A stretch of DNA of 64,000 nt from Cephalotus follicularis (taxonomy: Eukaryota; Streptophyta; Magnoliopsida; Oxalidales; Cephalotaceae), in the NCBI GenBank assembly GCA_001972305.1, contig BDDD01000048.1, positions 462,062 through 526,061 on the forward strand. Direction: 5' to 3'. The position numbers were made by a program, and so were the translations under genes. A model generated the notes under the pieces. That model made no database searches. It was not told where the DNA came from and saw only the letters and a program-made list of their open reading frames with translations. Of this stretch, positions 1,858-54,258 are shown one piece after another. Position 1 is the first letter of the stretch. Every line of letters begins with the position of its first letter.

Positions 1858-3317
1858 AGAAACAGCTCACTTGTTGGGACCGTTTTGCATTGTGAGCATA
1901 TGTATGCATATTGTATTGTATTAAATTGTATTTTGAGTTGGTTATTGAGGATTGTGAAACGTTTTACCCCTTTTTGGAAGTGCAAATGTGATCTACATAA
2001 ATCTTTACTTTATGTGAAATGTACGTTTTGAGATATATATATATTTTCGAAAGATTGTGAAGGTAGCTTCCAAAACCTTGTGAAAATGTGTTTGGTTAAT
2101 GGTTTATTAAAACCATTAGTTGTTTAGAAAATGGTTTTCAAAAGGATTGCAAGAATGGCTTTCGAGAGATTGCGAAACTGGTATACAAATATGTATTTGA
2201 GGTATTTGAATGTAGTTCAAATAACCGGGTTTTACTAAAGTGTATTGTTACAATCATTTTGATACTTGAGTTTTGGGAAAATGATCGTTATATATATTTT
2301 GGCAAATATATATGTTGCAAGTATTTATATATATAAATTACTTGAAATGTTTAAAGAGAAAATTATTGTTGCAAGTATTTTATGAAGCATAACTTACTTG
2401 GAAAATGAAGTGTTATATATATGTTTCGACAAATATATATATGTCGGAAGTATTTATACTTTAAACGTTTTGGAAACGGATTGCAATTTTTTGAACGAGA
2501 TGTTTTGATCAAGTATTTATTTTATAAATTACTTGAGTGGTATTGTGGGTGCTGTGTTTGCACCGTTATTGTGGCTATGTTGAGTGTTGGTACTTAGCCG
2601 CCGTGCTAGTATCGTTATTGTGTATTGATTGATTGTTGTTACTTAGCCGCCGTGCTAGTAACGTGGGTGTTATTGTATTGATTGTGATTGAGTGTTGCCG
2701 CTAGCGGGGTAATGTTGGTACTTAGCCGTCGTGCTTGTATCGTAGTGAGTTCCGAGTGTTGTCCACGCGGTCGTGCCTGTGCCGGGAACAATTGTTTGCT
2801 TTTGAGTGTATTGATTGTCTGCCTTGACATGCCTGATTGTTGTCCTTTGGGACGTGGCTGATCGTTATTGCGGAGTGATGGGTCCTTAGAGACATGAGAT
2901 ATTGTTGGCCGTTGTGCCGTTGTGATATTGTGAACCGTGTAGTGTGGTGATGTATTGTGACATTGTGGCCTGTGACCGTGTGGTCGTGGTATATATATAT
3001 GCATCGAGATATAGCGTGTACTGCATCATTGTGCATACATATCATGACATGTTTTACCCTTGACCCTGGATCGCTTTTATGGTTTTGCCGAGTGAGGACA
3101 AAGGCTAACCCCATACAACTTCAGTGTGTTTCAGGTTGACGCAGCCGTGAGTTGATGTTGGGCTCCGAGGAGCAATGTGGAGTTTTATGATGTTTACTTT
3201 GAGAAATGTTTATGGAATATTGTAATAAATGAATGGTTGTAATAAATGAATCGAGGTATCGATGGTTTTTGTTCAAGCTCCGTTTGAGGGCAGTTACCTG
3301 TGATGATGTTCCTGTTG

Positions 3318-3343
3318 TAGCATGTAGAATGGGATGCATGCTA
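3318..3343 (+). other. U5 stem-loop SL1 (G1 LTR)
   Basis: TAGCATGT pairs with GCATGCTA (inner pair T.G) around the ten-base loop AGAATGGGAT. The 5' arm starts 169 nt before the LTR end. Other LTRs in the window have the same loop, with one base changed in some copies, and different but complementary arms. Confidence 0.75.
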
Positions 3344-3350
3344 TGTTATG

Positions 3351-3433
3351 ATTCGGCTTATTTTATATGCTTACGCAGGTTATTAATGGATATGGAAAGT
3401 TTTAATTTTATGGTATTTTTGCATAAGCCGGAT
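3351..3433 (+). other. U5 long stem SL2 (G1 LTR)
   Basis: ATTCGGCTTAT (3351-3361) can pair with ATAAGCCGGAT (3423-3433) with one wobble. The loop contains ATGCTTACGC, matching TGCTTCCGC in the same place in LTR J and in the fragment at 13478. Confidence 0.6.
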
Positions 3434-3486
3434 TTATATGTTAATTGCCACCACTTTTTATGTTGTTTGTGAAACGGGGTGTGACA

Positions 3487-6496: not shown

Positions 6497-6509
6497 GTCT
6501 CTGATACCA
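6497..6509 (-). other. primer-binding site of copy A
   Basis: On the minus strand TGGTATCAGAGAC lies a few bases after the LTR end. It matches the complement of the 3' end of initiator tRNA-Met (TGGTATCAGAGC) except near its last base. It fixes A's orientation as minus. Confidence 0.85.
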
Positions 6510-8029
6510 ATCTTGTAACACCCCAAATCCGAGTTTACTATATGCTCAAAGCGAGCCTCAAGGAATCGAGGTACGTTACGTGGGGGTGTGACTATTAAAT
6601 CATTCAATCATTTATAAACTATGTCATATTTGAAGCTACACAATCTAAAATATACAAACATTTTTAAATTTTAACTTACATTTGATATTACCAAATGTCA
6701 CAGGAAATCATTTCTTCACATCGTCATGTTTGAACGTAAGTGGTTATGTTACAATTTACAGCGGAAAAACATTAACGTAACAAAATCAATTTATACAACA
6801 CATTATATTATAATACAAATTCCTTCTAAAACTCCTTTCTTAAGTTCCTTTAAAGCTTGAAACTTTTCCACGGTCAGGCATCCCCTAAAATTTAAAAAAA
6901 AAAAATTGAAAAGAGTGAGCTCAAAATAGCTCAGTAAGTATATTCGTAATAAAACATTGTTCAAACATATTTTTCTGGTAATATTTATAAAACCAACATT
7001 TTCATAAAACACATTATCACATTCCTTTTCTGTTCACATCTCATGAACCATAATTTTTCATAAATAACTGAGGGGTTGTATAAATTTAAATAACCCAATT
7101 GAACCAGTCACCGGGGCAGGGTGCACATCCCCGATCACCAACTTACATCACATGCATGTCCGCGAGCACTCTCCACTCATAACATTAATCTTTTACTAGA
7201 TTAATCCCCCCTGGATCGTAATCCAGTAGTTGTTCATCTCAGTTCATTTCATTTTCACCATTCATAAATCATTTTCTTAAATACTTTGAATGATCAGCTC
7301 AAAGAATTCATAAAATAAATTCGTACAACATTTGTAAAACTAAATTTACATATAACTACTAAAATAGTAAAATAATAAAATCATAACTTTCATGACGAAA
7401 AATAAACAACGTAAAAAAAATTAGCTCAATAACTTCAAATGATAAAATCATAACTTCCATAATAGTAAAATATAATTATATAAAATTTGGTAGAACTCCG
7501 GACTACATAAAGCGTGATAAAAACTAACGTATTAACATTTAAAGTAAATATCTCAACGAATTTAGAAAGCTAAAACTCGTAAATAAAGTTAACGTAAATA
7601 TTTTAACGAATTCGTAAATTTTAACTGGTAAATAAAACAATAACAAAATATCAGAAAATACAATAGAAAAAAAAATACTTTGACGAAAATAAGATTTTTC
7701 CTTACTAAGAAAATAGGAATCCTTACCTTGCTTTTAATTTCCTTCACTTCTTTTCTACACTGAAGTAATTTTAACAGAACTTCCTCTCTCTTTTCTCCGC
7801 TTTCTCTCTTTCTCTCCTCTTTCTCTCTTTCTCTCCTCCTCTTCCATCTGTAAATCTTCCGAAGTTACCACCCTATTTATAGGGAGAGTCTTCAGCCGCC
7901 TAACGTCATTCTTCTCCGTTAAAAAAATGACATGTGGCAATTTCCACTGGTTGCTTGCCATGCGTCCGTTTTTAATATTATTAACGCGCTAAACGACAAA
8001 AGACACCGGCATTTTCGAGGAATATTCCT

Positions 8030-8568: not shown

Positions 8569-9145
8569 TTCTACCCTCCTTATAAAACTTTTGTCCTCAA
8601 AATTTGTATACATTAGACTAAAAAAGATGAGGGTATTCCTTTCTCACCATTTCTTCCAATTCCCAGGTAGCTTCTTCAACTCCATGATTTCTCCATGACA
8701 CTTTTACTAAGGGAATTGTCTTGGTCCTTAGAATTTGCTCTTCATGATCCAGAATTTCCATTGGTTGTTCATCGTATGACAAGTCTTTATGTACTTGAAT
8801 CGGTTCAGCTCTTAGAATATAAGATGGGTTGGCCATATATTTTCGAAGTAGCGATACATGGAACACATTGTGAACGTGAGATAGACTTGGTGGCAAAGCA
8901 AGCCTATACGCAACTTCTCCTATCCTATCCAAAATATCATAGGGACCAATGTATCGAGGACTAAGCTTTCCCTTCTTACCAAACCGCATCACTCCTTTCC
9001 ATGGTGATACCTTGAGAAAAACATGATCTCCCACTTCAAAATGTAGTTCTCTCCGCCTTTTATCTCCATAGCTCTTTTGTCTACTTTGGGCTGTTAAGAG
9101 GCGTTTCCGAATCAGTTTCACTTTCTCGGTAGTTATTTGTACCAT
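8569..9145 (-). pseudogene. pol: integrase C-terminus with chromodomain (copy B)
   Basis: A 175-residue open stretch covers the integrase C-terminal domain (FEVGDHVFLKVSPWKGVMRFGKKGKL and YIGPYDILDRIGEVAYRLALP) and a chromodomain-like tail. The tail runs from ILDHEEQILRTKTIPLVKV through SWRNHGVEEATWELEEMV to YPHLF. In chromoviruses this tail guides integration to modified histones. After the stop, a GAGGACAAAAG stretch and a purine tract lead into the LTR at 8568. It is separated from the integrase core by a frame break near 9145-9172. Confidence 0.88.
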
Positions 9146-13216: not shown

Positions 13217-13442
13217 GATTTGATATGGGCACGCAAGGAGACTTAAGGAGAAGACCGAATTGTTTCTCTTATTTTATGTACTGGATTAATGAATAATGAC
13301 TATGTTAATTGGATTCTTGTAGCGTGGATTTTATATCTGTCATGTATTGATGGATACCGTGGTTTATTTCATTTCTTACTGTATTATCACGCTCCGTTTA
13401 TGGACGATCGATAATGATGTTGGGTTTTATATAAACTTTTTG

Positions 13443-13470
13443 GTATCACGTAGTATGGGATGCGTGATAC
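13443..13470 (+). other. U5 stem-loop SL1 (mosaic LTR fragment)
   Basis: GTATCACGT pairs with GCGTGATAC over nine positions (inner one T.G) around the loop AGTATGGGAT. It starts about 167 nt before the LTR end. This is the longest version of the stem in the window. Confidence 0.8.
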
Positions 13471-13477
13471 ATATTTA

Positions 13478-13552
13478 AATTCAGCTTATTTCATGTTACT
13501 GCTTCCGCTATTGAAAGTTTTTGTTTATACGTAAAATTGTATAAGCTGAATT
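13478..13552 (+). other. U5 long stem SL2 (mosaic LTR fragment)
   Basis: AATTCAGCTTAT (13478-13489) pairs perfectly with ATAAGCTGAATT (13541-13552). The loop contains TGCTTCCGC. Confidence 0.7.
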
Positions 13553-13610
13553 ATGTTGGTTGATTGCTTTACTGCCTTAATGTTGTCTTCTTGGAAAACT
13601 GGGTGTGACA

Positions 13611-13733
13611 GCATGGTATCAGAGCATATTCCAAATATGCTTAGCTAGGAAATTTTCCTCGGCAATCAATAAATTGTTTTTCTAAAGTCGGGAATAACTG
13701 TCATCCTTATTATAGGAACAAATGGACCGAAGG
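13611..13733 (+). other. primer-binding site, leader and gag start of the mosaic gypsy fragment
   Basis: TGGTATCAGAGC (13614-13625) is a perfect initiator tRNA-Met primer-binding site. The following leader aligns with that of D (51616-51706) and reaches an ATGGACCGAAGGAG start like D's MDLRRG. It then breaks into B-family RT sequence at about 13734. Confidence 0.8.
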
Positions 13734-14022: not shown

Positions 14023-14378
14023 GCTGTTTTATATATGTGTTTTAAGTGCAGGTTAAATGTGTTTTAAAACAATTAGGGTATGGTTTTAAGTTTTGGATAC
14101 TATGGTGAATCAATTAAGGTTTATATGCACCATGATTGATTTTAGGAATGTGACAAATCCTTAGGGTTTGAGTACCCTACACAAATCCGAATCAAGCATG
14201 TTTAGAAACCTGCCAAGGCTTCATTTAAATGTCCAATTAAAGATCTAAGATGCAATTGGGGCATTTACGGGCATTGGTTAAGGGTAGTTCCTTCACCGGA
14301 ACATAAAATTTAAAATAGAGCACCCGTAACCCTAATGTCCTGAATGTTTTTCTTCCGCTACTTTCCCAATTTCTAACA
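14023..14378 (+). repeat. truncated 5' LTR of copia element Cop1
   Basis: The last 356 bp of the LTR, matching the end of the 3' LTR (22280-22634), and ending ATTTCTAACA just before the primer-binding site. The first about 2.1 kb of this LTR are missing and replaced by the mosaic fragments. Confidence 0.9.
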
Positions 14379-14380
14379 AG

Positions 14381-14392
14381 TGGTATCAAAGC
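14381..14392 (+). other. primer-binding site of Cop1
   Basis: TGGTATCAAAGC differs by one base from the initiator tRNA-Met complement TGGTATCAGAGC and lies two bases after the LTR. Confidence 0.8.
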
Positions 14393-31075: not shown

Positions 31076-33665
31076 TTGTGGAATAATTAAATGGATTAAA
31101 GGACATGTGTCAAGCAAAGGAGTGAATACTTATGATATTTTAGAGGAAAGGGACATGTGTCATCTTTTGAATGGAAGGAATTCCATCACATGGGCAACTC
31201 AATGGACAAAGCCTCTGTAACGCCCGGAAATTTCATGTATTGTAATTTCACAATGTAAATGTACTTTATTTGTGGAATTAATAAAAAGATGGATTTCACG
31301 AATTTGATGATGTTGATTTTAAATCAATTAAGTACTTAGAAGTGTGATTGCTTAGTATTACACAAAGAGCAGTCGACTGGTACAGTAGACCAGGCGACTG
31401 GTTGACTGCGTATGGGAGTAGTCAACTGGTGGGATGAACCAGTCGACTGGCCAACTGTCGAGCCACGTGGTAACGATCTGCCAGGCCAGCAGCCGGCTGT
31501 TGGGTGTGGACAGCCAACTGGATCGTGCTTTGTTTTGTTGCATGTGACAGAAATCACATGCCACAGCTGACAGATGGAAATGGGTGCCATCTGTGTTTCA
31601 TGCAGCTAAAGGAAAGGATGAGGAGGACACCTGTGTTTCATGCAAACCTCATGGGGGGAGGAGTTTAGACCTGTGAGTGTGTGCATGCATGTGGAGAAGG
31701 AAAGTGGCATTTAGTGCCATGTGAGAAGAGCTAAGGAAGAGAGGGAGAGAAACTCCCTGCATAAAACGTCTTCCCTCATCTCCTTCATCCTGGCACTGAA
31801 GAGTCTAAGAACCAAAGAGGACAGTAGAGAAAAACACAGAGAAAAGAGGGAAGGGAGTGTTTCTCCATTGTTGAATCTTGGAGCTCGGGTTGGAGCTATT
31901 GGACTATTCTTGGAGCTACTGGGCTTGGAGTTGGAACTTCTGGGGAGCCCAAAATGTCACTGTTGGGTCACAAAGAGGTGGACTTACAGATTCCTAACTT
32001 GGAATCAAAAGGTAGGGGAAGTTATGATTGTATTTTGAGTTCAATATTACTGCATGTTATGTAATTGGTTGTCTGCTAGTATAAGCCACAATGCTCAATT
32101 GACATGACCATGATTGTTGCTGGTTTTACGCATGCCATGTTTACCGTTGAGAATCTTTGAACTTATGTACATACATGTTAAGTTTTATCTTAGTATTGGA
32201 TTACTGGATAAGATGCATGCTACTGTTGTGTTCTATGAGACTGTGAAGGGCTGAATGATGATTTTCTGCCTTGAGAACATATATTGGATGCTAGTAATGA
32301 TCTGTTTAAGTGGTATATAACGGATTGCATGCAACTGTTTCCCAGAACAGTCGACTGTCGAAGGAAGACAACCGACTACTCAATCAAAACAGTTGAATGT
32401 TGAAGGATGACAGTTGACTGCCTGATGAACCAGTAGGCTGGTAGAAGGAACTAGCTGGATACTCATGTACTGAATTCCCAGAACAGCCGACTGGTGGAAA
32501 TTCCAGCCGACTGCCAAGCTGCTGTTTGGTCTCCTCTTGCTTAAAACGAAGCGCGACGATCCCGATTTCGCTTAGGATGTATTAGAGCATTTGTATGCAT
32601 TGCATATACGCTGTTTACTGCCTGTTTGGTTACTGTTTGTAAATCGTTTATGATTTATGAAGTTGTGGTCTTTAGAAATGCATATGTGAACTCGGAATGT
32701 GATATTTTGAGTATCAAAATATGTATTGGTTAATATCGTATTTTCGAACGAACTGGTAAAAGATTTACACTACTGAAACTGTTTAAAAAGTATTTTCTAC
32801 TACCGAACATGTATATTTCAGATGTTTTATGACCTTCGAAACATTTTGAAATGAACTGCCTGTTGTCGATCTAAACGATCACTACCGTACTGTTTACTAC
32901 ACTGTTGACTGTTTTGTTTCACTGCTTGCTTTGTGAAATTATTGTGTTTGTGCTTGAGCCACTAGTTGCATGGCGGAGGCTGCCAGTGCCAGCTAGTGGT
33001 AGGGTTGACCTAGGGGCCAGGAGTATGGCTGGGTGACTCACTATACTGTACTGTTGCCTCGCTCGGTTACCTGGAGCAGGGGCTGGAGTGGGAGTGTATC
33101 ATGGGGCCAGCAGTTGGCGGCGTTACATATACTGCCTGACTGTTGTGGTCCTCTTACAGACATACTGTACTGCCTGTTGGTCCTTTTCGGATATTGCTGT
33201 GATTGGGATGTGATCCTGGCCGGATCACTACTGTACTGTTCTTGCATACATATATTTTCTTATATATGTACCCACTGTTATTTTATTGTACTGTTAAAAT
33301 ATATATATTTCTCATATATATATATATAAACTGGTATTTCCTGCACTGCATCCCTTATGCATACATTACATGACATGCATCTAATGTTGATCCCGAGATA
33401 CTTTTATGACTTAGCCGAGTGAGGACAAAGGCTAACCCCCCTACTTTACAGATTGATGCAGTGGACCGTTTGGACTAGCATGGACGAACAACAAGTCGTT
33501 ATGTTGTTATTGTTCTTGGTTCTACTTTCTAAGTTGTAATAAACTGTTTTGTTAAAGGATTTCTGGTGTACCATACTTATGGTTTTGTTTAATGGTGGGA
33601 TTTAATCTTGTGTTGTGATCACGCTCCGTTTTGTTGGGCTATTAACAACGATGGACTTGTATTGG

Positions 33666-33693
33666 GTAGCGTGCAGTATGGGATGCACGTTAC
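33666..33693 (+). other. U5 stem-loop SL1 (LTR J)
   Basis: GTAGCGTGC pairs with GCACGTTAC (one G.T wobble) around AGTATGGGAT. The eight-base core arm starts 169 nt before the LTR end. Confidence 0.75.
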
Positions 33694-33698
33694 ATGTT

Positions 33699-33775
33699 TT
33701 CAGCTTATGAATCTCATGCTTCCGCAACTGATGTCCGTTTATAAGTTTAAAATTTATGTTTTTGCATGAGCTGAA
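33699..33775 (+). other. U5 long stem SL2 (LTR J)
   Basis: TTCAGCTTATG pairs with CATGAGCTGAA with one wobble. The loop contains ATGCTTCCGCA. Confidence 0.6.
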
Positions 33776-36002
33776 TTTGTATGTTAATTGCCTTTACCGC
33801 TTCAAATGTTGACTCCTTGAAACGGGGGTGTGACAGTCTCATGGGTGACATCACTTAGAGGCAAGGTGGCCTAGTGACTCACCATGCAAAGCTTGGCCTC
33901 CAAGTTTCTCTCTCTCTTTATATATGTGTGTATTCTTAGATGTTAAAGGGTTGTTTTCTACTAAGTTTGGAGAGGAGAATTCATGGGAGAGAATGGAGGA
34001 GGAGATTAAAGTAAGGTAAGGAAAATCAAACTCTTTCATTACAAGTTATTCCTATGTTTTACTTTGAAATGATGCAGCAGATTGTTTTATTCATATATTT
34101 CTCGTTTCTTAATGGATTTGTGAATTGTTGAATGTTTTGGAAGGTTTAGGATGTCCTATTTAATTGTTATGTTTTGAATGTTCCCGAATTCTATCTATTT
34201 CTGGACGAGAATCCATGTTTTAAATTTGTGCTCGGGTACTGTTTTCTTATGTTCAATTCTAGAATTATGCAGCAACTTCGTTTGTTCATAACGTATTCGT
34301 TTCTTGATGAACTTTCAAATGGTTTAATGTTTTAGAAACTTCAAGATGTCTTCTTTAACTTCTATGTTTTGTACGTTCCGGAATTCTGTCAATTTCTTGA
34401 CGAAAAACTATGTTTAAGATTACTGCTCCTGTACTGTTTTCATATGGGACACGCAACTTTGAAAATTCACTGCAGCCTGGTTTCTCAACCAAAAATTATG
34501 AACCTTACCTTTCTAGAATTGTTTAAATGTCTAATTTAACTTTTATGTTTTATATTTTCTATCGAAATGATTACGTATATACGAAAAATCAGTTTTAGAA
34601 ATGTTATGCAAGGCTGTTTTATAAATGTTCTATGAAATGATTTTATGAATACATTTGAGTTAATCACTCAAATGATGAGAAATGCTTTATGAATTGTGAA
34701 AGAAATGTTATACTATGTTGTTTATGAATGCTTTGAGATGATCACTCAAAGTATTAACAAATGTTTTATGAAATGGTTTTACGAAATGAAAAAAGGTAAC
34801 GAACTGAGATGAACAACTCTTGGATTGCGATCCAAGGAGGATTAATCTAGTAAAGATTAATGTTATGGAGCGAGATGCTCACGGACATGCATGTGATGTA
34901 AGGATAGTAATCGGGGAGTTCACAATGCCCCGGTGAAGAATGGTTCAACTCAGTTATGTATGAAATGTTTTGATTCATGAGATATGATCAGAAAAACGAA
35001 AGGAATGTGAAATGTTCTGATTCATGAGATATGATCAAAACAATAAATGAAATGTTCTTATTCATGAGATATATTCAGAAAAGAGGAATGAATGTGGAAT
35101 GTGCTTGTATTTATACCAGAAAAGGATTTTCAATGATGTTTTGATTTCAAGTATGGCCGGGCAATATAGCAGGAAATATATGAGTTTAGAAATGTTCTGA
35201 TTTTATGAAAATTATCAGAAAAACGGATTTTGATGGTGAAATGTTCTAGTTTTATAAAACTAGAAGATGATTTTCAATGATGTTTTGAAATGTATGATTT
35301 GGAAACGTTTTGGTAAAGATTATCAAAAACAATGTATTCCAATAACGTTTTATGACTATGATCTTTACTGCGCTATTCGAGCTCACTCATTTCAGTGTCT
35401 TGTTTTTAAATGAATTTTCAGGAAACGCGAACGTGGAATTGCGAGCTTTAAAGAAAGTTCGTAAACGAAGTATCAGAAAGGAAGTATGTTATGCTATGAA
35501 GTTTTGTTTTAATATCGTACGTTAATGTTTTCCGATGTGTAATGTTTATGTCGAGTAATGTGTAAATGTAAGGTGCTAGAAAAGGATTGTTATCATGAAG
35601 CCTGATGTATGGTATTGAAAGTTATGGAAAGATTGAGATTATGAGAAATATAATGATTCTAAAGCTTTGCGTTCAAAGTTATAAGTATATTTTGGTCCTG
35701 TGAAGCTAGTGAATATGATGAGATATTTCCGCTGAGTAAAGATGTTATGCTTTGAAGAGAATCTAAGCTAAAATCAATTATTGTAATAAAGTTTAGCTAT
35801 GATGAGTGTATGAAAATTTTGAGTTCTTCATTTTTTGGAATTATGAGGTTATCGAATACGATATAACATAGTGATGATTAAATGGTTAATATATCGTTAA
35901 ATGATTAAATGATTTGATGGTTAATGTTTCACCCCCACGTAAAGCACCGGATTCTCGAGGGTCGTTTTGGGCATAAAGTGGACTCGGATCTGGGGCGTTA
36001 CA

Positions 36003-42358: not shown

Positions 42359-42496
42359 TGTCACACCCCGTTATTTCATTTACATTAGACAAGCATATAT
42401 GGTGATATCAGAAAAAAGCATAATAATCCAGCATTCCCATAAACAAATCCAATACATAAGTGGAAGCAGTCATTTGGATTATACATCATAAGTTAT

Positions 42497-42522
42497 CCGC
42501 ACGCATCCCATACTACTTGCGG
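42497..42522 (-). other. U5 stem-loop SL1 (D, 3' LTR)
   Basis: On the minus strand CCGCAAGT and GCGTGCGG surround AGTATGGGAT. One pair is lost (A opposite G) compared with the 5' LTR, which has CCGCACGT. Confidence 0.7.
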
Positions 42523-43927
42523 GTACAAACCAACCCAAATATCCTTATACCTAAGGAAGTACAACAGTAACACGGGGTATGATCCGTTCAATACAAAATA
42601 CAGTACATCGACAAAATAACAACCTTAAGATGACAAAAGAAGCTCTCCAAGCTTCAGCAGCAATCTCCCAAACATCCTTGCTTCATCTGAAATTGTAGGG
42701 GTTAGCCGCTGTCCTCACTTGGCTAAGTAGGAAGATAATGCATGCTAAGGAATATATGAATGCAACATGTATGACAGTTTATATTTAAAATATCATTTAA
42801 GTATGCCAATATATAAGCAATCATGCCAAGTGGCCATAGACAATACAATGCAATCATACCTCACAAGGGTACAATCAATTCATACTGTGGTTTGGGTGTC
42901 ACAAGTCGCTAACTCCTAGCACCAACTGCGCACCACCTATCTATCACCCTACACTCCGAAGATGATAGATCAGGTAACATTTACTACCGGTGTTAGCGGG
43001 CAGTTTAACAATAAGATCTGCAATGCAGACAGTTTTGGGTGTGTACTCTAATCAACTCATGGCACATAGGACCACCTACGTTAGCCAGAGACATCTGCCA
43101 TCACTAGACTAATCGGCAATAACAAGGACAATCAATTCAATCATTTCAGTTCAATAATAATATTACATATATAAATAATATGCAATATCAAGTGTTTTCA
43201 TTAGAAACATATATCAATTCACTGATCGTACATCTCATAAGAGGAAAAAGATATGAATACAGTAGTGGTTTCCAATTTGGAAACAAAACAGTAGGTACCT
43301 CTCATAGGAGGAATATCAGTAGTTCGTTTAGCAATAATCTTTCATTTGAAATGATAGTTAATATCATAAATTGTGCATATAGCACATAGTTTGTTCAATC
43401 TGTGTAAATATGAAATCAATAGGGTTTGTAACAGTGACTAGTATATACCAATTAACAGTAGCATATACAGAGACAATATCAAAATAGTAGTAATTCAAAT
43501 GAAGGCCAAACATGTCCTATATCAGAACTTTAACCCAGGACAGTCGGATGTTCTCAAGAACAGTCGGCTGTTTTCCCTTGACAGTCGACTGGATGCATTG
43601 AGTAGTCGACTGTCATGAAGAACAGTCGACTGCTTCTGCCCAGAAATGCAGGCAGTAGCAGGTTGTATATATTTTAATGTCCATTTTCTAACCAATCCAA
43701 CACATGCAATCATACAGAAAATAAACATACATGATATGCATAAAATATCTTCCATAAACATGTCATTACCCCAACCTCAATTTGTCACACCCCGTCTTTC
43801 AAATCACATAATAGTGGTAAAGCAATCAACATATAAACCCGGCTTAAGCAATTTTACCATAAATTTAAACTTTCTGTATCCAATAATCACTTGCAGAAGC
43901 ATTTCAAATTAAACCAAATTAAAAACA

Positions 43928-43953
43928 CATCACGCATCCCATACTACGTGATG
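43928..43953 (-). other. U5 stem-loop SL1 (LTR L)
   Basis: On the minus strand CATCACGT pairs with GCGTGATG (inner T.G) around AGTATGGGAT, starting 171 nt before the LTR end. Confidence 0.75.
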
Positions 43954-44524
43954 CCCAACAAGTTATAAATATCTCCAGCATAACTGTCGATCGCCCAAAA
44001 CGGAGCGTGAGAATCATACAATAGAAGATAACAAATATCCAACGCTACAAAAATCAAAGAACATGATAAATGTTCAACAACCCAAAATAAGAGAAAATAA
44101 TAAGTGTTCTCTTTAAATCTCCGTGCATGCTCCATGTCAAGACCACTCCATCAATCTGCTACAGTAGGGGTTAGCCTTTGTCCTCACTCGGCTAAGTGAA
44201 TAAATCCATAATTACAGTTCAAGTAATAAGGCAATGAGTATCATGAATGAATGCATAATGATGAGCCATGTCATGTAATTTTCATAGTAAAAATACCTCC
44301 GTATATACATACAAAAATATATGCATGCTCACAGTATAAGTAGAACTCATATGTTATATCAACACAAGCAATAATATGTTCCCAATAAGGAACCAGACAA
44401 ACAAGTCGTCATAACCGTCGCCACCTCCTGGCCCCAACGTCACGCACTCTTACTCCGCCCCCGTTTGCGAACGGTTTTGGAGCAAGTCCTCCGTAAGTTG
44501 TTTAGCACGGTGGCTGAACCAACG

Positions 44525-44820
44525 ATGTCTTTTACAAAGGCGTCGATGTCTTTTTCATACCAGAGAGTATCAGTTGCGAGCCTTGATTCTAGAGGCTAAA
44601 ATCCAACCCTTTAATCCATTTTAACAACGAATCTCACTCCATAAACGTATAAAGTATGCTACTGGTTAACAACAACACAACCAGAACATCCAATCGAAAT
44701 CAAACAGGCGATCCCAAGTGGCTTAAATGGCCACCTGAAACGAACATCACAGTTCATGCAGTTTCCCAGAAAAGGAGTCGATGTCTTTGTAAAAGACGTC
44801 GATGTCTTTTACAACACAAA
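44525..44820. repeat. second GACGTCGATGTC cluster (LTR L)
   Basis: Four to five motifs such as AGGCGTCGATGTCTTT and AAAGACGTCGATGTCTTT lie inside the predicted LTR intron. They share the arm type of the U3 cluster at 45556-45722. Confidence 0.7.
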
Positions 44821-45555
44821 ACGTGTTTTCCACAATTTTAGCACGCCAAGCCATTTCTAAATCAGTCCTTTACAAAACCAACGTGCATGATCAAGAAATC
44901 ATACATGCATAATCAACTCAGTGTATCACAGTAACACTACAACAAGTCCAGAATCTCAATCCAATCATCAATATGCAATTCACCATGTTATACATTAACT
45001 TAAAACTCAAAATGCACATATAAATCCATCACTTTCCCCTACCTTGTTGTACCAAGTTAGGAACCGGAAAGTCCACCTCTTTAAGTATCCAAACAGGTCA
45101 CAGCAGCCTCTCTAGGTTCGTCCCGTAGCTGCACCAGTGGTTCCAAGGTCCAATCTCCAAGCTCCAAGCTCCAATGGCACACACACACCCACTGGTTTTC
45201 CCGTCTCTCTTTCTTCTGGTGTTATAAAACGAGAGAGAGAAGTGGGGAAGGGTATTTTTATGCAGATGACTCTCACCTAACACCCTTCTTTTGTCATTTA
45301 ACAGTTACCCCCGAGATCTCTCCCACTTCTAAGTTTTCTGCATTTCTTTTTGTTTTCTTTTCTTTTCTTCTGCATGTGGCATGTTAGGATGGCATAAATC
45401 CTTGCATGTTCCATGTGAGGGTAGGTTTTAGTGCTCCTGGTCAGTACACAGACATGCTCAACACGTCGAATCGCACTTGAAAAGGCATTAGGTAAAGCCC
45501 TTAAACAATCCCCTTGCATGTTATTCTGAAGACGAAGAACGTGCTGGCCATTCTA

Positions 45556-45722
45556 ACAAAGGCGACGACGTCTTCCCTTAGACGTCGATGTCTTTTCCAA
45601 TTTGGTAAGAAGGTGTCGATGCTTTCTCCCAATGTCGACGTGCATGTCCCTTCCTTCATGTGTGCCCTGGCTCCCAAAGGAGTCGACGTCTTTTCCAAAG
45701 ACGTCGATGTCTTTGTCCCAGA
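45556..45722. repeat. U3 cluster of GACGTCGATGTC motifs (LTR L)
   Basis: Six motifs, e.g. TTAGACGTCGATGTCTTTT, GTGTCGATGCTTTC and GGAGTCGACGTCTTTT, lie 160-330 bp from the LTR start and upstream of the TATA-like box. Confidence 0.75.
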
Positions 45723-47018
45723 ACGTTGCCGTTTCAAGCTTTAACATACACATTCCATTTCCAAGTCCATATGTAGGGTTTGTAAGCATCTTTTGAGTCC
45801 AAAACTCAACATTCTCATTAATCAAGTTTAACGATTACATCATGAATAGAAATATTACATTCAGAAAAATGCCGGGCGTTACACAATTGCTATCCCAAGA
45901 TTAATTGGAATTGATCTTTCTCTTTGAGTTTCCAAGCCTCTTTCACCAATCACTTCTTTAATTCCAACAGAATATAATCTATACAGTGCATGCATGTAGG
46001 TTCAGTCATTAACCAGTAGGTTTGAGTAACTATCAGTTACAATTACTACTTCAACAGTAGCCTATTATCAATTCCTTAAGTCTTACACTTCCATTTTACA
46101 ACTTCCTCTTGAACTCTTGGTCAATATATCCTTCAATTCCAGATTCCTTGTTTCTAACGTGGGGACAGAAGGTGTATATAGATACTTAAGAGAATCAATG
46201 TACATTTATCTTGACAACTAACAACATCTATAATCCAAGTTAGAGTTACCAATAATTTCCTTAGCTTCACATCCATTATTTCTTAATCCCTCTCATTATC
46301 ATTTCTAATTGTAGCATTATGGACAGAAGATATTAAATATTCCTAGTCACATTCTTGACATATTACAACATCAGTAGGGAGCTCGAATTTGATACTTACC
46401 AGGAGATATCCAAAGCTTCCAAGTCTTTCTTTGAGCTCACCGAATCCTCAAATGCAAGCTTTCCCAAATTTTCAGCAATTCTCCTCAACTTTAGTGTTTT
46501 CTAACTCACATTCAGCTTATGGACAGCTGATATAAAGCTTCGAATTCGCCAGATTCTCCTAACTCAGCCTTCTCTCCTTCTCTCTCTTACATGCACTTCT
46601 TTTCTTACCTTTTCTCTTCTATTTTTGCAGGTTGCAGGTCTGCAATTCTTCCAGAGGGAATAGAGGACATGCAAGGTATTCCCCTTGTATGTTATGGCAG
46701 GTGGTGACACGCATTCTTCATGCATGCCACGGCTAGAACACCTGTCCTCCTTGTCTCTACGCATGCCAGATGTCTGTTCTGTACCAATCCAGTCGACTGT
46801 CTTCGACAGGCAGTCGACTGTCCACTCTCGCCTCAGACAGTCGACTGTTCCCCTGTGACAGTCGGCTGTCGATGGCTGTTTTAGGTTATTTTAGGTTCCT
46901 TTGCACAAATAAAACTAGCAACCACAAATCGTATAATAATTGGACATTAAATTCAAGTAAGTGCACATTTTATTCATCAATATCACAATGTACACGAATT
47001 GAATTTGCGGTTATTACA

Positions 47019-51618: not shown

Positions 51619-51706
51619 TCAGTTTCCTATATGGAGTGACATAATCATTAGGAAACAATCCACTTAATTTCCGAGAAACTTATCCCAGCTAGCATATATG
51701 GAATAT

Positions 51707-51718
51707 GCTCTGATACCA
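51707..51718 (-). other. primer-binding site of D
   Basis: On the minus strand TGGTATCAGAGC, a perfect match to the complement of initiator tRNA-Met, four bases after the LTR end. Confidence 0.92.
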
Positions 51719-51721
51719 TGC

Positions 51722-54258
51722 TGTAACACCCCGTTATTTCATTTACATTAGACAAGCATATATGGTGATATCAGAAATAAGCATAATAATCCAGCATTCC
51801 CATAAACAAATCCAATACATAAGTCATCCGCACGCATGCCATACTACGTGCGGGTACAAACCAACCCAAATATCCTTATACCTAAGGAAGTACAATAGTA
51901 ACACTGGGTATGATCCGTTCAATACAAAATACAGTACATCGACAAAATAACAACCTTAAGATGACAAAAGAAGCTCTCCAATCTTCAGCAGCAATCTCCC
52001 AAACGTCCTTGCTTAATCTGAAATTGTAGGGGTTAGCCGTTGTCCTCACTTGGCTAAGTAGGAAGATAATGCATGCTAAGGAATATATGAATGCAACATG
52101 TATGATAGTTTATATTTAAAATATCATTTAAGTATGCCAATATATAAGCAATCATGCCAAGTGGCCATAGACAATACAATGAAAGCATACCGCACAAGGG
52201 TACAATCAATTCATACTGTGGTTTGGGTGTCACAAGTCACTAACTCCTAGCACCAACTGCGCACCACCTATCTATCACCCTACACTCCGAAGATCATAGA
52301 TCAGGTAACATTTACTACCGGCGTTAGCGAGCAGTTTAACAATAAGATCTGCAATGCAGACAGTTTTGGGTGTGTACTCTAGCCAACTCCTGGCACATAG
52401 GACCACCTCCTTTAGCCAGTGACATCTGCCATCAGTCGACTAATTGGCAATAACAAGGACAATCAATTCAATCATTTCAGTTCAATAATAATATTACATA
52501 TATAAATAATATGCAATATCAAGTGTTTTCTTTAGAAACATATATCAATTCAGTGATCGTACATCTCATAAGAGGAAAACGATATCAATAGTGGTTTCCA
52601 ATTTGGAAACAAAACAGTAGGTATCTCTCATCAGAGGAAAATAAGTAGTTCATTTAGCAATAATCTTTCATTTGGAAGGATAGTTAATATCATAAATTGT
52701 GCATATAGCACATAGTTTGTTCAATCTGTGTAAATATGAAATCAATAGGGTTTGTAACAGTGACTAGTATATACCAATTAACAGTAGCATATACAGAGAC
52801 AATATCAAAACAGTAGTAATTCAAATTAAGGCCAAACAGGTCCTATATCAGAACTTTAACCCAGGACAGTCGGCTGTTCTCAAGAACAGTCTTTTTTTTT
52901 TGAGCAGTCGACTGTTTTCCCTTCACAGTTGACTAGATGCATTGAGTAGTCGACTGTCATGAAGAACAGTCGACTGCTTCTGCCCAGAAATGCAGGCAGT
53001 AGCAGGTTGTATATATTTCAATGTACAATTTCTAACTAATCCAACACATGCAATCATACAGAAAATAAACATACATGATATGCATAAAATATCTTCCATA
53101 AACATGTCATTACCCCCCTACCTCAATTGCTATCCCAAGATCAATTGTAATTGATCTTTCTCTTTGAGTTTCCAAGCCTCTTTCACCAATCACTTCTTTA
53201 ATTCCAGTAGAATATAATCTATACAGTGCATGCATGTAGGTTCAGTCATTAACCAGTAGGTTTGAGTAACTATCAGTTACAATTACTACTTCAACAGTAG
53301 CCTATTATCAATTCCTTAAGTCTTAGACATCCATTTTACAACTTCCTCTTGAACTCTTGGTCAATATATCCTTCAATTCCAAATTCCTTGTTTCTAACGT
53401 GTGGACATAAGGTGTATATAGATACTTAAGAGAATCAATGTACATTTATCTTGACAACTAACAACATCTATAATCCAAGTTAGAGTTACCAACAATTTCC
53501 TTAGCTTCACATCCATTATTTCTTAATCCCTCTCAATATCATTTCTAATTGTAGCATTATGGACAGAAGATATTAAATATTCCTAGTCACATTCTTGACA
53601 GATTACAACATCAGCAGGGAGCTCCAATTTGAAACTTACCAGGAGATATCCAAAGCTTCCAAGTCTTTCTTTGAGCTCACCAAATCCTCAAATGCAAACT
53701 TTCCCAAATTTTCAGCAATTCTCCTCAACTTTAGTGTTTTCTAACTCACATTCAGCTTATGGACAGCTGATATAAAGCTTTGAATTCGCCAGATTCTCCT
53801 AACTTAGCCTTCTCTCCTTCTCTCTCTCACATGCACTTCTTTTCTTACCTTTTCTCTTCTATTTTTGTGGGTTGCAGGTCTGCAATTCTTGCAGAGGGAA
53901 TAGAGGACATGCAAGGTATTCCCCTTGCATGTTATGGCAGGTGGTGACACGCATTCTTCATGCATGCCACGACTAGCACACCTGTCCTCCTTGTCTCTAC
54001 GCATGCCAGATGTCTGTTCTGTACCAATCCAGTCGACTGTCTTCGACAGGCAGTCGACTGTCCACTCTCGCCTCAGACAGTCGATTGTTCCCCTGTGACA
54101 GTCGGCTATCGATGGCTGTTTTAGGTTATTTTAGGTTCCTTTGCACAAATAAAACTAGCAACCACAAGTCGTATAATAATTGGACATTAAATTCAAGTAA
54201 GTGCACATTTTATTCATCAATATTACAATGTACATGAATTGAATTTGCGGTTATTACA
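51722..54258 (-). repeat. 5' LTR of D (2.54 kb)
   Basis: On the minus strand it starts TGTAATAACCGC (54258) and ends GGGGTGTTACA (51722). It differs from the 3' LTR by scattered substitutions, a T-run insertion near 52890 and a 32-bp deletion near 51824. The donor-like CTCCTG|GTAAGT has its first intron base at 53639 and the acceptor ATTTCAG ends at 52018, a 1622-nt candidate intron. CAGTCGACTG clusters lie at 54025-54115 and 52860-52985. Confidence 0.93.
51828..51853 (-). other. U5 stem-loop SL1 (D, 5' LTR)
   Basis: On the minus strand CCGCACGT pairs with GCGTGCGG (inner T.G) around AGTATGGCAT. The loop has one change (GGG to GGC). Confidence 0.75.

Follow-up and report, generated by a model that had tools for sequence, protein, structure and literature searches.

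A covarying U5 hairpin in Ty3/gypsy LTRs of Cephalotus follicularis and its possible role in docking the initiator tRNA-Met primer

A 64,000-nt stretch of the Cephalotus follicularis genome (hereafter the window) contains several gypsy LTRs in which a short U5 hairpin recurs with changing arms and a nearly constant loop. The question raised by this locus was whether the hairpin is maintained as an RNA structure and what the element leader might use it for. The original prediction described eight-base arms around a ten-base loop at six sites. All six hairpins were found where they had been predicted, and their arms and loops agreed with that description except for one pair. Namely, the arms were complementary in the copies other than the 3' LTR of element D, where CCGCAAGT and GCGTGCGG left one A.G mismatch. 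Both loop variants, AGAATGGGAT in G1 and AGTATGGCAT in the 5' LTR of D, had been read correctly. Since the first A and the last T of the presumed ten-base loop can pair with each other, the structure was better described as a stem of at most 10 bp that closes the 8-nt loop GUAUGGGA, and we refer to it as P3. The copies of P3 are given below, all six from window reading and folding.

3318..3343, plus strand: P3 of copy G1, loop G-AAUGGG-A with one loop change
13443..13470, plus strand: P3 of copy M (a mosaic fragment), 10 bp, loop GUAUGGGA
33666..33693, plus strand: P3 of copy J, 10 bp, loop GUAUGGGA
43928..43953, minus strand: P3 of copy L, loop GUAUGGGA
42497..42522, minus strand: P3 of the D 3' LTR, one A.G mismatch, loop GUAUGGGA
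51828..51853, minus strand: P3 of the D 5' LTR, loop GUAUGGCA; no D-arm box (see below) was found after P3 (deletion)

Five hairpins with complete 8-bp arms (G.U allowed, at most one loop mismatch) were present in the window, against none in each of 200 first-order Markov simulations. RNA folding of the six copies one by one gave z values from -2.5 to -5.5. Rfam matched no known family to the hairpin: there were 0 matches above the gathering score in the whole window, and one chance-level match (E 4.7) was located near copy M. With a covariance model of the six U5s, these six were recovered by construction, and the window search gave nothing convincing beyond them (next best E 0.19). The surroundings of the hairpin had been described as much less conserved, which was true for the primary sequence (mean column identity 62%), but further paired or conserved elements were present there.

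The minus-strand pieces of D encoded RVP_2, RVT_1/RNase H, Integrase_H2C2 and SH3_Tf2-1 above cut-off and in the gypsy order, with rve below its cut-off. A Chromo match of 20.4 bits (cut-off 25.1) was located in the ORF 8618-9145, and the D pieces searched yielded no such match. For copies J, L, G1 and M, the grouping was based solely on the LTR ends. We tentatively call the elements Tekay-like. AATAAA was present 77 and 94 nt upstream of the hairpin in G1 and 129 nt upstream in J, which would place the hairpin in the U5 part of the leader. Copy L (43783-45883, minus strand) had the appearance of a solo LTR (about 2.1 kb) that had inserted into the 3' LTR of D; the D LTR matches were split at L, and the full LTR of D would therefore be about 2.5 kb. 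The D 5' LTR had a deletion 3' of the hairpin, at about 51815-51827 (minus strand), and no D-arm box was found there, unlike in the D 3' LTR, which kept the box with one mismatch. A second conserved LTR element, TTAGCCGAGTGAGGACAAAGGCTAACCCC(C)TAC with a possible stem TTAGCC/GGCTAA, was observed about 200-350 nt upstream of the hairpin in five of the six window copies and was absent from M. Among the 90 genome copies described below, 67 had at most four mismatches to its 24-nt core. This element is perhaps located in R, near the transcript start, and its window sites were as follows.

3087-3110, plus strand: second conserved LTR element
33414-33437, plus strand: second conserved LTR element
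44169-44192, minus strand: second conserved LTR element
42700-42723, minus strand: second conserved LTR element
52031-52054, minus strand: second conserved LTR element

A pol piece had its protein matches, at 89-90% identity, in Cephalotus follicularis. The 1.58-Gb assembly that contains the window was searched with a pattern that left the 5' arm of P3 free, namely GTATGGGATG and the LTR end GGGTGTGACA at a distance of 125-155 nt. This pattern matched 23,859 places, compared to 15 for the reversed control. We read 90 copies of the 100 matches listed, leaving out 10 near neighbours; the sample came from the first contigs only rather than at random, represented a single genome, and retained one copy with an unrelated 5' arm (L070). 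The six window copies were excluded from the pair counts, the 8-mer counts, the covariation test of the proposed pairs and the double changes with their direction, as well as from the tRNA-complement counts, the unpaired-probability averages and the comparison of the box with a small stem. Relatives were also sought outside this genome, and the searches of viral and genome contigs provided no usable LTR. Pattern searches of the viral contigs gave 0, 0 and 2 matches, and the protein-guided scans of these contigs confirmed no relative. Both viral matches looked like G+C-rich, unrelated DNA that had neither the loop nor the PBS, and the single match among the genome contigs, from an uncultured bacterium (L001), was taken as chance.

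Pairs 1-9 of P3 were formed in 79-88 of the 90 copies and pair 10 in 46, with different bases at the same pair. For example, pair 4 was CG in 48 copies and TA in 32, pair 7 was GC in 45, GT in 16, AT in 14 and TA in 13, and pair 9 was TA in 42 and CG in 36. When only the ten proposed P3 pairs were counted against a tree-based null that preserved the substitutions per branch, five of the ten covaried (E < 0.05, 90 copies). When the columns of the nine tested pairs were left out of the tree construction, 16 double changes kept the pair and 2 did not, and sliding the partner by 1-3 columns reduced the pair-keeping double changes to 0 or 1. Single changes were almost evenly divided into 31 that kept the pair and 30 that broke it. 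Thus, selection on an RNA structure of the leader, as originally proposed, was supported by genome copies that had been collected blind to the 5' arm, and we regard stem P3 as firmly demonstrated by the covariation in these sequences.

The claim that the pairs covary was upheld for the proposed pairs but not over all column pairs. Among 96 U5s, this time with the window copies included, no column pair was significant (best E about 2.3), and the P3 pairs were ranked 2nd, 4th, 7th, 14th and 18th. The weak covariation over all pairs can be interpreted as a consequence of two deep clades in the alignment. When the clades were tested separately, only 2 of 43 pairs were significant in one (both from P3) and 0 of 36 in the other, with none in the further helices P1, P2 and P4 introduced below. 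The second clade had 0, 1 and 1 pair-keeping double changes in P1, P3 and P4, no more than its slid controls.

Complementary arms could also be mimicked by a palindromic DNA site, such as a cruciform or the site of a dimeric protein, or by symmetric CpG decay. The arms did hold CACG/CGTG and CATG cores, and six of the 16 double changes were of the CG to TA type, which is possible by decay of methylated CpG, although the direction of the changes depends on the midpoint root. However, the other ten were AT to GC, TA to CG, or included a transversion. Moreover, pair 2 was U.G in 81 of the 90 copies, which in DNA is a T.G mismatch; conserved G.U pairs of this kind, in P3 as well as in P1, would be mismatches in a DNA cruciform and therefore favoured RNA over DNA. 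The larger fold up to the LTR end was also shared by both clades, and we consider the DNA explanation extremely improbable. Simple turnover of a palindrome was weakened as well, since the stem pairs varied while the loop stayed nearly fixed, and this was also the case in a sample collected blind to the loop (see below).

P3 was apparently a part of a U5 fold of roughly 220 nt that is closed at its base by the stem P1, in which the LTR end pairs with a motif further inside. After separate alignment and folding of the two clades (52 and 43 sequences, D5 left out), P1, P3 and P4 were recovered in both. The 5' strand of P1 was TCACGCTCCGTTT in one clade and TCATACC(C/T)CGTT in the other, and its 3' strand was formed by the last bases before the LTR end, AAACGGGGTGTGA. 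P4 consisted of ATTCAGCTTAT with ATAAGCTGGAT and variants in both clades, and P2, present in one clade only, of GGGCAATTAAC with GTTGATTGCC. In the clade with P2, both P2 and P4 had five pair-keeping double changes, compared to 0-2 and 0-3 in the respective slid controls, and in the other clade P4 had one against 0-1. P1 had 1 and 0 double changes in the two clades, and its single changes kept or broke the pair in 49 and 34 cases in one clade and in 29 and 18 in the other. The scarcity of double changes was likely due to the 3' strand of P1 being the conserved LTR terminus. The clade folds of P1 also contained conserved U.G and G.U pairs. Thus, P4 and P2 were fairly supported by comparison, P1 is proposed less firmly from conservation, thermodynamics and its recurrence in both clades, and the full U5 fold can be considered a supported model. 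In retroviruses, the U5 sequence at the LTR end is held in a stem beside the PBS. P1 would similarly place LTR-end U5 sequence in a stem adjoining the PBS, but this stem would be made from the conserved LTR terminus itself, with another two or three helices inside it. The strands in the window are listed below, with the P4 helices taken from the clade folds.

3273..3285, plus strand: P1 5' strand of G1 (TCAAGCTCCGTTT), from window reading and fold
3351..3361, plus strand: P4 5' strand of G1 (ATTCGGCTTAT)
3423..3433, plus strand: P4 3' strand of G1 (ATAAGCCGGAT)
3473..3484, plus strand: P1 3' strand of G1 (AACGGGGTGTGA), two bases before the LTR end at 3486
13387..13399, plus strand: P1 5' strand of M (TCACGCTCCGTTT)
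13597..13608, plus strand: P1 3' strand of M, one mismatch; LTR end at 13610
33619..33631, plus strand: P1 5' strand of J (TCACGCTCCGTTT)
33699..33708, plus strand: P4 5' strand of J (TTCAGCTTAT)
33766..33775, plus strand: P4 3' strand of J (ATGAGCTGAA)
33822..33833, plus strand: P1 3' strand of J (ACGGGGGTGTGA)
43998..44010, minus strand: P1 5' strand of L
43785..43796, minus strand: P1 3' strand of L; LTR end at 43783
42571..42582, minus strand: P1 5' strand of the D 3' LTR, in the form of the other clade (TCATACCCCGTG)
42361..42372, minus strand: P1 3' strand of the D 3' LTR; LTR end at 42359

Judging by the PBS sequence, the primer of these elements is the initiator tRNA-Met (iMet). Of the 90 copies, 21 had the PBS TGGTATCAGAGC at +3 or +4 relative to the LTR end, 17 of these as an exact match, and the other 69 had no TGGTATCAGAGC within two mismatches. 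A 30-position piece of iMet had six matches in the genome, where the genes end with GCTCTGATA, and ARAGORN annotated four of these six loci as tRNA-Met with the anticodon CAT. Two PBSs were read in the window.

13614..13626, plus strand: PBS for initiator tRNA-Met of M (TGGTATCAGAGCA), 3 nt after the LTR end at 13610
51706..51718, minus strand: PBS for initiator tRNA-Met of D (TGGTATCAGAGCA), 3 nt after the 5' LTR end at 51722

At 13624-13640 (plus strand), GCATATTCCAAATATGC at the PBS end could form a hairpin that overlaps the end of the PBS.

The same tRNA was matched at a second place in U5. Outside the parts used for selection, the most frequent 8-mers of the 90 copies, a sample blind to this box, were TGCTTCCG (65 copies) and GCTTCCGC (62 copies), and GCTTCCGC exactly complements the D arm of iMet. 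The nine bases UGCUUCCGC complement GCGGAAGCG (tRNA positions 15-23) through eight Watson-Crick pairs and one U.G. Each base of UGCUUCCGC was conserved in 80-90 of the 90 copies, and conservation dropped to 63 copies on the 5' flank and to 74, then 56, on the 3' flank; the copies had been aligned by their best match to GCTTCCGC, a procedure that inflates the values for its eight bases and leaves the 8-mer counts unaffected. The leading U of UGCUUCCGC, which is outside the aligned match, was present in 88 copies. At least seven contiguous pairs to the tRNA (G.U allowed) were possible in 88 of the 90 copies, compared to a mean of 12.6 (maximum 23) for shuffled sequence and 15 of 90 for a different segment of these U5s. 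Exact complementarity to iMet over 8 nt was present in 63 of the 90 copies, a number reached by 2 of 500 shuffled tRNAs. The corresponding values were 74 copies and 7 of 500 for 7-nt words, and the match was weak for 9-nt words (11 copies, equalled by 27 of 500). No 8-nt complement to the T-arm positions was found in the U5 part examined in the 90 copies; Ty1 has its site 3' of the PBS. The box was not predicted to be open, with an unpaired probability of 0.40 vs 0.39 on average in these copies. Its window sites were the following.

3368..3376, plus strand: D-arm box of G1, one mismatch (TGCTTACGC)
13500..13508, plus strand: D-arm box of M (TGCTTCCGC), exact
33717..33725, plus strand: D-arm box of J (TGCTTCCGC), exact
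43893..43901, minus strand: D-arm box of L (TGCTTCTGC), one change that gives a G.U wobble to the tRNA
42460..42468, minus strand: D-arm box of the D 3' LTR, one mismatch (TGCTTCCAC)

Conservation of the box TGCTTCCGCA might have reflected a short hairpin of its own, in which UGC/GCA encloses UUCC, rather than a tRNA complement. RNAalifold did pair UGC with GCA in one clade, and an A followed the box in 74 of the 90 copies. However, 23 copies broke the small stem and yet kept at least seven contiguous tRNA pairs, and the reverse was observed in one, where the box had been located by its likeness to TGCTTCCGC, a procedure that favours the tRNA match. The local hairpin was thus an unlikely reason for the conservation of the box.

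A third complement was found in the loop of P3. Its core UAUGGG is the exact complement of CCCAUA (iMet 31-36), that is, of six of the seven anticodon-loop bases CCCAUAA, and its predicted unpaired probability was 0.85 in the 90 copies. Additionally, eight of the 90 had an exact 8-nt complement of iMet 30-37 outside the hairpin loop (TTATGGGC). In copy L039, for example, the exact complement of iMet 30-37, from the anticodon stem-loop, was located upstream of the hairpin. A loop-blind sample was obtained with the box pattern TGCTTCCGCA at 75-105 nt before the LTR end. Blind to the hairpin, this pattern matched 20,877 places in the genome, compared to 21 for the control; hence, the hairpin loop and the box each preceded an LTR end more than 20,000 times in this genome. 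Of the first 30 places in the list, 28 had a best hairpin with at least 8 of 9 pairs. The loop counts of this sample include three hairpins in the wrong register (L120, L123, L126), and in the right-register hairpins the loop changes fell in the G run. Loop conservation was expected to be confined to UAUGGG, but in these 30 copies, collected blind to the loop, the flanking G and A were equally constant. This would be accounted for if G and A formed a closing pair around a loop of six bases, which is a post hoc idea.

The conserved first G of the loop would also be used if the loop paired intramolecularly with CCC(C)UAC beside the upstream TTAGCC/GGCTAA hairpin (GUA-U-GGG/CCC-UAC, with one base bulged or mismatched). 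Among 40 copies inspected, most did have CCC(C)TAC after the upstream motif. This pairing requires the bulge or mismatch, however, and leaves the box unexplained, and both of its sides hardly vary, which makes covariation uninformative; we consider it very unlikely. The domain could otherwise be a conserved packaging or dimerisation fold with the loop as a Gag/nucleocapsid site and a coincidental match to the tRNA. Near-invariance of the whole 8-nt loop, beyond the six tRNA-complementary bases, was in line with such a function, and the Ty1 Gag is reported to bind a leader pseudoknot as well as sites near the tRNA-annealing sequences (PMC4974528). On the other hand, it would remain unexplained why the commonest U5 8-mers complement the same tRNA. 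The loop GUAUGGGA was not self-complementary, and a kissing dimer of the retroviral type through it was therefore improbable. Taken as a whole, we regard a packaging or dimerisation fold as unlikely.

Both the P3 loop and the commonest U5 8-mer complement the primer tRNA, and among the roles listed in the original prediction (packaging, dimerisation, priming or translation) priming is therefore favoured; we infer this role, as well as the place of the hairpin in the transcript. Our main reading, with a probability of about 0.62, is that the U5 domain docks its primer, the initiator tRNA, through contacts with the D arm and the anticodon loop, in addition to forming the covarying hairpin and fold. 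Given the complementarity alone, such docking is probable. In this model, the genomic RNA of a large group of Ty3/gypsy (Tekay-like) elements primed by initiator tRNA-Met would fold its U5 into a domain of about 220 nt, with P3 as one of the arms. P1 would form between the inner motif and a stretch of 11-13 bases that stops two bases short of the LTR end, and the domain would sit in the leader beside the PBS. The loop G-UAUGGG-A might form a kissing interaction of 6 bp with CCCAUA in the anticodon loop CCCAUAA, the box UGCUUCCGC, located between the P4 strands, would pair with the D loop and the 3' strand of the D stem (GCGGAAGCG), and the PBS would pair with the 3' end of the tRNA. Docking could then ensure that the right tRNA is chosen or packaged, and could position the start of minus-strand synthesis beside P1. 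That the primer is read at all three places, namely at its 3' end by the PBS, at its D arm by the box and at its anticodon loop by a kissing-loop hairpin, has in our opinion slightly less than an even chance. If this is true, the anticodon of the tRNA itself would serve to check the identity of the primer before DNA synthesis.

To our knowledge, the way in which LTR elements select one tRNA from the whole pool is understood for just a handful of elements from yeast and animals. The best reading of the U5 domain, from the sequence comparison, was a plant version of the primer-tRNA contacts of Ty1, Ty3 and HIV-1. In Ty1 and Ty3, RNA outside the PBS is described as contacting the T and D arms of tRNAi-Met, which aids packaging and initiation, and for Ty1 the D-arm-complementary sequence was reported to promote both packaging of the primer and initiation of reverse transcription (PMC5371799, PMC4974528). 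The elements studied here are similar in using the same primer tRNA and in having a sequence outside the PBS that is complementary to its D arm (PMC5371799, PMC4974528). The sites of Ty1 are 3' of the PBS and those of Ty3 are in the 3' UTR, whereas the present box was in U5, upstream of the PBS and between the strands of a helix. The passages cited mention no anticodon-loop contact for Ty1 and Ty3 (PMC5371799, PMC4974528), while a loop complement was present here; unlike in Ty1/Ty3, no T-arm complement stood out in the U5 part examined. The A-rich loop of HIV-1 is another leader loop upstream of the PBS that complements the anticodon loop of the primer, in this case tRNA-Lys3 (PMC7793103). In contrast to what is described there, the present hairpin had a perfect stem, a 6-nt complement rich in G and U, covarying arms and a different tRNA. 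In a paper on conserved LTR structures, the chromovirus model is described as having been trained mostly with LTRs from zebrafish, and the six Metaviridae models listed in the same passages include no plant clade (PMC3601003). No plant precedent was found in the open-licence literature by title and the start of the abstract.

Natural copies, 90 of which were read from some 24,000 places, thus provided a hairpin backed by covariation and a model of a plant leader. Two exact tRNA complements were found outside the PBS, and the question of tRNA selection can now be tested with short RNA fragments. The fold also offers a structural signature by which LTR ends might be located and classified. Finally, and against the docking reading, three other iMet-PBS-like sites in the window had no TATGGG in roughly 500 nt upstream. 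In two of these upstream stretches, D-arm complements were found by eye: the 8-nt CTTCCGCT at 14352-14359 (plus strand), 21 nt before the PBS-like site at 14381 (plus strand), and the 7-nt TTCCGCT at 6760-6766 (minus strand), about 250 nt before the PBS-like site at 6497 (minus strand). D-arm boxes may therefore be more widely spread than the hairpin.
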